Assembly (NCBI RefSeq): GCF_000383915.1
Contig: NZ_KB912942.1
Coordinates: 6,010,564 to 6,074,563 of the forward strand
Source of the DNA: Amycolatopsis benzoatilytica AK 16/65
GTDB lineage: Bacteria > Actinomycetota > Actinomycetes > Mycobacteriales > Pseudonocardiaceae
Direction of reading: 5' to 3'
Length of the DNA: 64,000 nucleotides
This document shows, one piece after another, positions 31,653 through 32,677 of the stretch. A model generated the notes under the pieces. That model searched no databases. It was not told the origin of the DNA and saw nothing but the letters and a program-made list of their open reading frames with translations. The translations under genes were made by a program, and so were the position numbers. Positions within the stretch are counted from its first letter, which is position 1. Each line of letters begins with the position of its first letter.

Positions 31653-31786
31653 CGTCTGTCCACGCTACCCCGGGGGTACGACAGACCCGGAACAGCCACG
31701 GGGTCGGACTGCGCTCGCGGACGTACGCCGGAGTGTCGCCTCGCACCCGACGCGCGAGCCCGTCCCGGCGCGGACCATCGAACGGT

Positions 31787-32218
31787 ATGGACGACAAAAT
31801 CCCCGCCCGGTTGAGGGCTTCCGACAGCGACCGAGAGCGCGTCGCCGAAACTGTTCAGGCCGCCGGTTCCGAAGGACGGCTCACCCTCGAAGAGGTGGAA
31901 GACCGGCTGAGCGCGGTCTACGCCGCTCGCTACACCGACGAGCTTCGCGAGCTCACCGTCGACCTCCCCCGCCCGGCGCCCTCCCGCCCTCGCGGCGGCT
32001 GGCCGCTGACCCGATCCGCGCTGCGCGAGCATCCGGCGCTGCGCGTCCACCTCGGCATCGTCGTGCTGCTGGCGACCTTGCTGATCGTGCGCTGGGCGAT
32101 CGGCGGCGCGATGTTCTTCTGGCCGGCGATGCCGATGTTCTGGCTGTTCGTCAGCCTTCTGGTGCACGCGCGGGTGCGCACGTTCGGGCGGCGTCCAGGC
32201 GCGCCTGTGCCATACTGA
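31787..32218 (+). CDS. DUF1707 (SHOCT-like) membrane protein
   Basis: A 143-residue protein. LRASDSDRERVAETVQAAGS and GRLTLEEVEDRLSAVYAARY are the DUF1707 block, present in many actinobacterial membrane proteins and of unknown function. Two hydrophobic helices follow (VHLGIVVLLATLLIVRWAI; MFFWPAMPMFWLFVSLLVHA). The ATG at 31787 gives the conserved MDDKIPARLRASD start. It is divergent from pcrA (134 bp). The -10 element of the chorismate mutase leader lies over its stop codon, so the two units are packed closely. Confidence 0.83.
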   Translation: MDDKIPARLRASDSDRERVAETVQAAGSEGRLTLEEVEDRLSAVYAARYTDELRELTVDLPRPAPSRPRGGWPLTRSALREHPALRVHLGIVVLLATLLIVRWAIGGAMFFWPAMPMFWLFVSLLVHARVRTFGRRPGAPVPY

Positions 32219-32222
32219 AACC

Positions 32223-32285
32223 GTGCGGCACCACAGCGAGCGATTTTTTTACGGGACCCGGACTCCGGCTCCCGTGATCGCGTAG
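32223..32285 (+). CDS. Candidate Phe/Tyr leader peptide of the chorismate mutase attenuator
   Basis: GTG 32223 opens a 20-codon frame, VRHHSERFFYGTRTPAPVIA, that ends with TAG at 32283-32285. Codons 8-10 are TTT TTT TAC (Phe-Phe-Tyr), the end products of the pathway that chorismate mutase feeds, and TTT is a rare codon in this genome. CATACT (32211-32216) lies 6-7 nt before the GTG and fits a -10 element, so the leader would be translated from a leaderless transcript. The stop is in front of competing hairpins described separately. Confidence 0.7.
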   Translation: MRHHSERFFYGTRTPAPVIA

Positions 32286-32337
32286 TGCCTCACCCGCCAT
32301 CACCCGCAGCCCCGGAGTCCACTGGACCCGGGGCTTT
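32251..32337 (+). promoter_or_regulatory. Ribosome-mediated transcription attenuator
   Basis: Three mutually exclusive structures are seen. The pause hairpin is ACGGGA (32251-32256) with TCCCGT (32270-32275) plus an inner CCGG/CCGG. The antiterminator is GGACTCCGG (32260-32268) with CCGGAGTCC (32312-32320). The terminator is AGCCCCGG-A-GTCC (32308-32320) with GGACCCGGGGCT (32324-32335), followed by a short T run. A ribosome stalled at the Phe-Phe-Tyr codons (32244-32252) would cover the first arm and allow the antiterminator; one that reads through would permit termination. Confidence 0.68.
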
Positions 32338-32380
32338 CGCCGTCCCAGGGCCAGCGAGTCCGGACTTCAGAGAGGTCCCG

Positions 32381-32677
32381 ATGAACGCGCAGACGCAGAA
32401 CGCCGACGGGCAGCCCGCCGAGCACACCAAGGCGGGCGAGGACATTTCCGCGCTCCGCGAAGAGATCGACTTCCTGGACACCGAGATCCTCCGGCTCGTG
32501 AAGCGCCGGGTCGAGGTGTCCAAGACGATCGGCGCGGCCCGGATGGCCGCCGGCGGCACGAAAATCGTCTACAACCGCGAGATGGACGTGCTGGCGCGCT
32601 ACCGCGAGCTGGGCCCGGAGGGCCGTCAGCTGGCGATGCTGCTGCTGAACCTGGGGCGGGGCCGGCTGGGCCGGTGA
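32381..32677 (+). CDS. Monofunctional AroQ-type chorismate mutase
   Basis: A 98-residue cytosolic enzyme that converts chorismate to prephenate for Phe and Tyr synthesis. ISALREEIDFLDTEILRLVKRRVEVSKTI is helix 1 with the Arg and Lys of the active site, and RMAAGGTKIVYNREMDVLARYRELG covers the connecting helix. Length and lack of a signal peptide match the intracellular mycobacterial enzyme Rv0948c. Such enzymes are weak alone and are activated by DAHP synthase in mycobacteria; this is known for the family, not shown here. AGAGG lies 5 nt before the ATG. Upstream is the leader-peptide attenuator. The acidic N-terminal 20 residues are extra. Confidence 0.93.
   Translation: MNAQTQNADGQPAEHTKAGEDISALREEIDFLDTEILRLVKRRVEVSKTIGAARMAAGGTKIVYNREMDVLARYRELGPEGRQLAMLLLNLGRGRLGR

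Follow-up and report, generated by a model that had tools for sequence, protein, structure and literature searches.

A probable phenylalanine/tyrosine leader attenuator upstream of the chorismate mutase gene of Amycolatopsis benzoatilytica and its relatives in actinobacteria

The window analysed in this study is a stretch of 64,000 nucleotides from Amycolatopsis benzoatilytica AK 16/65 (contig NZ_KB912942.1), to which all coordinates refer. It carries the gene of chorismate mutase (CM), the enzyme of the branch point from which chorismate is directed to Phe and Tyr. This assignment, already made in the first-pass annotation, was confirmed by the Pfam family CM_2 (E=7.6e-10) and by the NCBIfam models NF005894 and TIGR01808, whose cut-offs were exceeded, and the closest solved relative of the protein is Rv0948c (E=6.8e-30). 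The gene and the region in front of it (32211-32381) contain the following features:

32211..32216, + strand: -10 box CATACT with TGC directly 5' (extended -10), read from the sequence; the promoter scan gave no promoter-like pair
32223..32285, + strand: leader ORF of 20 codons from GTG to TAG, MRHHSERFFYGTRTPAPVIA; the frame is kept in relatives
32244..32252, + strand: regulatory codons TTT TTT TAC (Phe-Phe-Tyr), read from the sequence
32253..32273, + strand: hairpin 1:2 (anti-antiterminator or pause hairpin), GGGACCCGGACTCCGGCTCCC, starting right after the Tyr codon; from folding and covariation
32260..32268, + strand: antiterminator strand 2, GGACTCCGG; from folding and the between-family duplex test
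32274..32303, + strand: inner helix GTGAT/ATCAC inside the antiterminator; from folding and alignments inspected by eye
32308..32335, + strand: terminator-like hairpin 3:4 (strand 3 at 32312-32320, CCGGAGTCC) followed by a short U-tract; from folding and covariation, with a negative strict scan
32371..32375, + strand: probable Shine-Dalgarno sequence AGAGG of CM, outside both competing structures
32381..32677, + strand: CM, 98 aa, AroQ type, monofunctional; from Pfam, NCBIfam and the closest solved relative

The gene further upstream (31733-32218), which encodes a DUF1707 (SHOCT-like) protein, ends at the -10 box, and the final base of CATACT is also the first base of its stop codon TGA (32216-32218).

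A leaderless frame of 20 codons with the Phe-Phe-Tyr run had been proposed at the outset. The frame and its codons stand, with the stop codon TAG at 32283-32285 and 95 nt between it and the CM start codon ATG at 32381; the leaderless start is what we infer only from the spacing of the -10 box, which lies 6 nt from GTG 32223 and would place the transcription start at or next to this position. The competing structures of the same proposal, namely a pause hairpin, an antiterminator of 9 bp and a terminator, were likewise recovered. The folding energy was -11.4 kcal/mol for hairpin 1:2, -17.3 kcal/mol for helix 2:3, in which strands 2 and 3 form exactly 9 bp, and -23.2 kcal/mol for hairpin 3:4. 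Strand 3 is shared: it is the antiterminator partner of strand 2, and hairpin 3:4 includes it in its 5' arm. The terminator is a weak point; its U-tract is poor (3 T in the 8 nt past the stem), and the strict scan of 31900-32500 gave neither a promoter nor a terminator. The leader fold was more stable than expected from shuffled sequences (z=-5.16), none of the 200 shuffles being equally stable. The inner helix reads GTGGT/ACCAC in some other genera, as judged by eye and uncounted. No Rfam family, T-box and named leaders included, matched the window at its gathering score, and the same search on five relatives gave only a match to P15 in L214 (E=0.099, 24.9 bits vs a cut-off of 70).

The conservation that the Phe/Tyr reading entailed was examined in a first set of 136 CM loci from the genus and family of the window, including the window's own (L001). 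Some species are present twice, and the set holds 112 distinct 250-nt upstream sequences; the relatives from named genomes, fetched by protein, come from Amycolatopsis and mostly from other Pseudonocardiaceae. The aromatic motif T(T/A)(T/C) TA(C/T) GG was found within 350 nt upstream of CM in all 136 first-fetched loci, so the aromatic frame is conserved, and a looser aromatic pattern was found in 257 of 279 CM loci, duplicates counted. The first Phe codon is TTT in 132 of the 136 loci, the T run being one base short in the other four. As the long high-GC3 frames of the window contain 314 TTC and only 11 TTT codons, this is a rare codon which is retained in the leader. When a spacing of 5-8 nt was allowed, a -10-like hexamer preceded the leader start codon in 131 of the 136 loci (at 6 nt in 109, at 7 nt in 21 and at 8 nt in 1, the window's own locus counted); four of the five loci missed by this pattern fit by eye at 6 nt, and L075 does not. 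Such a spacing is that expected of a leaderless message. The pattern TTYTTYTAYGG occurs 9 times on both strands of the 8.7-Mb genome and the reversed control pattern 8 times, and the peptide motif alone is therefore neither rarer nor commoner than chance. The sequence TTTTTTTACGG has a single occurrence on both strands of this genome, and the covariance model R1, which comprises stem 1:2 and hairpin 3:4, found no second copy of the leader in it, the next match (E=0.117) being antisense at the same place. The contig of L092 is titled Rhodococcus rhodnii, and its leader is identical to that at Kibdelosporangium loci such as L040, so that a mislabelled record is possible.

Both states of the RNA were analysed for compensatory changes. 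Alignment A1 was made from 45 of the 112 loci that had been read in the + orientation. For A2, dereplication of 134 sub-regions left 44, L008 and L062 having been dropped by the terminator pattern. Alignment A4 comprises 82 sequences from 14 families, taken from 85 sources (L226, L228 and L294 were left out) with antisense matches excluded. It was aligned by a model of the same structure and so leans towards it; stem 1:2, which follows the Tyr codon, nevertheless has almost no gaps from that codon onwards. In A4, 93.3% of the cells of stems 1:2 and 3:4 were paired, compared with only 37-58% in the slid controls. Two-sided changes occurred at 12 of the 20 pairs, among them 9 of the 12 pairs of the GC-rich stem 3:4, and both sides were changed in 138 cells vs 38.5 in shuffles, none of the 500 shuffles reaching this value. 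The covariation that was to be looked for after the first pass is thus present in both stems. For helix 2:3, strand 2 paired with strand 3 of its own family at a mean of -13.3 kcal/mol and at -11.3 kcal/mol when the strands were swapped between families; only 1 in 20,000 family permutations was as good (P=5e-5, an average over families). Replacements were seen in f15, where GGAGUCCGG pairs with CCGGGCUCC (one G-U), and in f8, where GGUCCGCGG pairs with CCGCGGUCC (8 of 9), both in place of GGACUCCGG with CCGGAGUCC. Strand 3 of the own family was the best partner of strand 2 in 4 of the 14 families (f1, f8, f13, f15). In the other 10, another family supplied a strand 3 that paired equally well or better. 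The margin was wide in f12 and f10, the strand 2 of f10 preferring strand 3 of f1 and that of f12 preferring strand 3 of f15. Helix 2:3 thus co-evolves between families on average, with an uneven signal. The two structures 2:3 and 3:4 are mutually exclusive and are conserved by compensation (2:3 on the family average). In GC-rich spacers, short frames occur often and so do GC hairpins, and their coincidence in front of CM might be thought accidental. Such a chance origin is refuted by the conservation, the covariation and the codon logic, and its probability is practically negligible.

Four variants of the leader bear on the question of whether the peptide or the RNA is under selection. One base is missing from the T run of L017/L066, L027 and L106, and one C from stem 1:2 of L086. 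These one-base deletions turn the peptide tail GTRTPAPVIA into forms such as GTGPRLP and leave the hairpin sequences intact; L106 retains one Phe codon at the regulatory site. As the tail is altered and the hairpins are kept, we read the tail as a by-product of the RNA, and a selected peptide tail was rejected. An arrest of the ribosome by the nascent peptide FFYGxRTPAPV, which would sense something other than the charging with Phe or Tyr, would account for the very constant tail RTPAPV in Pseudonocardiaceae, but this tail is encoded by a hairpin that is bound to pair in two ways, and it was replaced by one-base deletions in at least three lineages which kept the RNA. Moreover, other families have other tails, and the codon adjoining stem 1:2 is a Tyr codon in 79 of the 82 aligned sequences, the exceptions being two with Phe and one with Val. 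Peptide arrest is therefore highly improbable, and the sensing of tRNA charging remains the preferred reading.

How a stalled ribosome would act on the RNA was modelled by ribosome-masked folds of RNA made to 32320 or 32324, first with the downstream RNA only and then with the RNA upstream of the ribosome, the size of the ribosome footprint being common knowledge. Before strand 4 is made, helix 2:3 reached a probability of 0.83 when the ribosome stood on either Phe codon (8 or 9) and about 0.5 when it stood on Tyr codon 10; the probability was 0 without a ribosome or with the ribosome at the stop codon. The regulatory codons are thus placed so that a stalled ribosome would cover strand 1 and free strand 2, and from the difference between the Phe and Tyr codons, Phe shortage is predicted to act more strongly than Tyr shortage. 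For the full-length RNA, a terminator probability of about 1 was obtained even with a stalled ribosome. Antitermination must therefore be kinetic in this model, because the complete strand 4 lets the terminator win at equilibrium in every state.

What the analysis shows of the attenuator is its anatomy, its conservation, co-variation in both states and a codon set that matches the enzyme. The element is a real, conserved and probably functional Phe/Tyr attenuator. More specifically, we consider it very likely to be a leaderless, ribosome-mediated transcription attenuator of the monofunctional CM which monitors charged tRNA-Phe and tRNA-Tyr, the start site, translation, termination and amino-acid response being deduced. 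RNA polymerase would start at or next to the GTG, trailed by a ribosome that has loaded on the 5' end. When Phe and Tyr are ample, the ribosome would clear TTT TTT TAC and hairpin 1:2 would form once it has passed or left; with strand 2 hidden in this hairpin, strand 3 would pair with strand 4 and transcription would stop near 32335-32345. A shortage of Phe or, to a lesser degree, of Tyr would stall the ribosome on these codons with strand 1 covered, so that 2:3 would pair before strand 4 exists and the polymerase would continue into the CM gene. The reading of the first-pass annotation, i.e. putative Phe/Tyr attenuation of transcription in front of CM, is supported by the conserved frame, the covarying hairpins and the co-evolving alternative pairing. 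Neither of the outcomes it had named as counter-evidence was encountered, the start of transcription being the one presumed above.

One alternative concerns the junction with the CM gene. The leader frame might belong to the 5' end of CM itself and be coupled through TAGTG (GTG 32285) to an N-terminally extended enzyme, as this GTG is in frame with CM in the window and would give a protein of 130 aa. However, the distance from the leader stop to the ATG falls into the three classes modulo 3 in 50, 34 and 14 of 98 loci, with the CM match beginning from residue 1. The frame is thus not conserved, the extended enzyme is refuted as a general explanation, and we regard it as extremely improbable.

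The distribution of the element was followed by covariance models. At E<=0.01, 221 of the 298 genomes searched in the order gave a match to R1, weak matches being included and some of them false. Among the matches listed, 69 loci of the order were read, 66 of them from other families or repeat matches and 3 from f1. CM was found downstream in 51 of the 69 loci with the first query; of the other 18, L175, L187 and L225 revealed CM with a wider query, L186 (a truncated stretch) gave a 20-residue CM match, and 14 were weak and false. The element precedes CM in the families f1, f2, f4, f5, f7, f8, f9, f10, f12, f13, f14, f15 and f16 of the order and in f33, f36, f46 and f50 outside it, i.e. in 16 families beyond the first according to the covariance models. 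Model R2 gave 59 class matches, of which all but G573, G631, G677, G768 and the R2 place of G774 were read. Every match read at E<1e-6 in its search had CM downstream or, in f31 and f66, DAHP synthase (for L186 only the 20-residue CM match). Leaders of the type MLTHTTFVFTYGNRPTGCHGRAA, variants included, precede CM in f33/g119 in all 11 matches read of 13 (all but G654 and G680). At the weak matches L229-L242, L267, L269-L273 and L332, tblastn found no CM and no DAHP synthase, and they were counted as false; for L233 and L242 this judgement comes from tblastn and not from inspection by eye.

Some CM loci gave no model match at the gene but have short frames with clustered Phe and Tyr codons, namely in f2 (L294), f3 (L292, L293), f6 (L299), f11 (L288) and, more weakly, f10 (L296). 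The frames of L299, L294 and L288 are other aromatic-rich short frames, e.g. VTGRAYPRFVFAYAYAFAGTGPVFAR. No recognisable aromatic leader was seen at CM in the f8 genera g65, g80, g83 and g102 (L277-L286), in L276 of g53 and in L300 of f2. Some f8/g53 genomes (L227, L266/L320, L274) keep the Phe/Tyr leader, but their terminator hairpin has decayed or is absent. The CM of L320 aligns over almost its full length with the chain of mycobacterial Rv0948c (E=5.9e-44), from which g53 is probably Mycobacterium.

Those g53 genomes in which the leader has outlived its terminator are one of the points that would suit an output other than intrinsic termination, i.e. the same sensing of Phe and Tyr acting on the access of ribosomes to CM or on Rho-dependent termination. 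The poor U-tract and the negative terminator scan point in the same direction, and so does a local hairpin of the window (32362-32378) which is able to pair with the CM Shine-Dalgarno sequence. The Shine-Dalgarno sequence, however, lies outside both competing structures, and its pairing with a hairpin of its own was found in only 42 of 96 loci, so that this hairpin was dropped as a general feature. Stem 3:4, GC-rich and with two-sided changes at most of its pairs, is followed elsewhere by up to 7 T of 8 (mean 4.2 over the 82 sequences). We thus consider an output through translation or Rho unlikely and continue with transcription attenuation as the preferred reading.

The E. coli pheL-pheA leader is a Phe attenuator on a CM-containing enzyme and responds to charged tRNA-Phe (PMC11802643). 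The element of the window resembles it in its Phe-containing leader peptide and putative attenuation before a CM enzyme, and it differs in that its CM is monofunctional, its codons are those of Phe and Tyr and its start is presumably leaderless, whereas the enzyme of the gamma-proteobacterium is a CM-PDT fusion. The leader of C. glutamicum aroR-aroF contains Phe-Tyr-Phe and is reported to respond to limitation of Phe, not of Tyr (PMC11802643, PMC4046766). It is likewise an actinobacterial aromatic leader, as compared by description alone, but aroR controls DAHP synthase, whereas the leader of the window precedes CM. The response predicted here, stronger for Phe than for Tyr, parallels the behaviour reported for aroR-aroF (PMC11802643). 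Attenuators of trp, ilvB and leuS in actinobacteria and the leaderless trpL and leuL of Streptomyces lividans are similar in their leader peptides, competing hairpins and leaderless starts (PMC1262725, PMC8079986); their amino acids and genes differ. The mycobacterial ilvB1 attenuator and cysteine-rich leaderless short ORFs are amino-acid-sensing upstream ORFs of the same order (PMC13236596, PMC9094748, PMC4633059), although they sense branched-chain amino acids or cysteine, unlike the leader of the window. In the main texts of these three papers, a word search found neither 'phenylalanine' nor 'aromatic'. A 2005 survey reports that it saw no conserved RNA structure in front of the phenylalanine and tyrosine operons of the actinobacteria it covered (PMC1262725), and CM and DAHP synthase are not among the eight leaders named for S. 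lividans in PMC8079986. No report of an attenuator at CM or across this phylum was found in the accessible open-licence literature (PMC2965389 among it). The mechanism is classical; as far as the searches reach, the attenuator is new for the CM gene and across the phylum, and it is unusually widespread.

Models R1 and R2, which were built from CM leaders without selection for Trp, also matched leaders before type I DAHP synthase in f31, f43, f66 and f68 (MQRNFWRFYGYRPTGSVARRALR, MRTAWSFWYGDGPVRTDRLHALR and others). The identity of DAHP synthase was established by Pfam (PF00793) for one protein and by tblastn for the rest. That leaders are present at 23 of 23 DAHP synthase loci is a circular statement, because the models found those loci. 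DAHP synthase serves Trp, Phe and Tyr, and CM serves only Phe and Tyr. Most of the DAHP synthase leaders combine codons for Trp, Phe and Tyr, as in FWRFYGYRP and WSFWYG, and the leaders are accompanied by a terminator-like hairpin. Among distinct peptides, a Trp at one of the five positions that precede the Tyr of the YG (or YF) core was present in 14 of 16 DAHP synthase leaders vs 1 of 161 CM leaders (Fisher P=9e-18, a value that ignores phylogeny, as species are not independent). Each peptide was counted once, the loci including duplicates; the 23 DAHP synthase loci include four (L304-L307) that duplicate L263-L265 and L268. This Trp contrast matches the prediction from the end products of the two enzymes. 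It is quite possible, and we propose it tentatively as something short of an even chance, that the CM leaders (Phe/Tyr) and the DAHP synthase leaders (Trp, Phe, Tyr) descend from one ancient attenuator of the phylum, its regulatory codons having been adapted in each case to what the controlled enzyme supplies, with a loss in some f8 genera. The Trp contrast is a natural experiment on how leader codons track the position of the enzyme in the pathway, and a switch at CM together with a Trp-containing switch at the first step would mean direct translational sensing of aromatic amino acid supply in actinobacteria. Glycopeptide antibiotics and other aromatic natural products are made by members of these groups, which makes the element an obvious target for engineering.

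In a sample of the phylum, a match was obtained in 13 of 198 genomes, and the 3 matches outside the class were DAHP synthase leaders. Leaders of the leaderless type before type I DAHP synthase in the four families named above were observed at L263, L264, L265, L268, L322-L331, L333, L334 and L337-L339.
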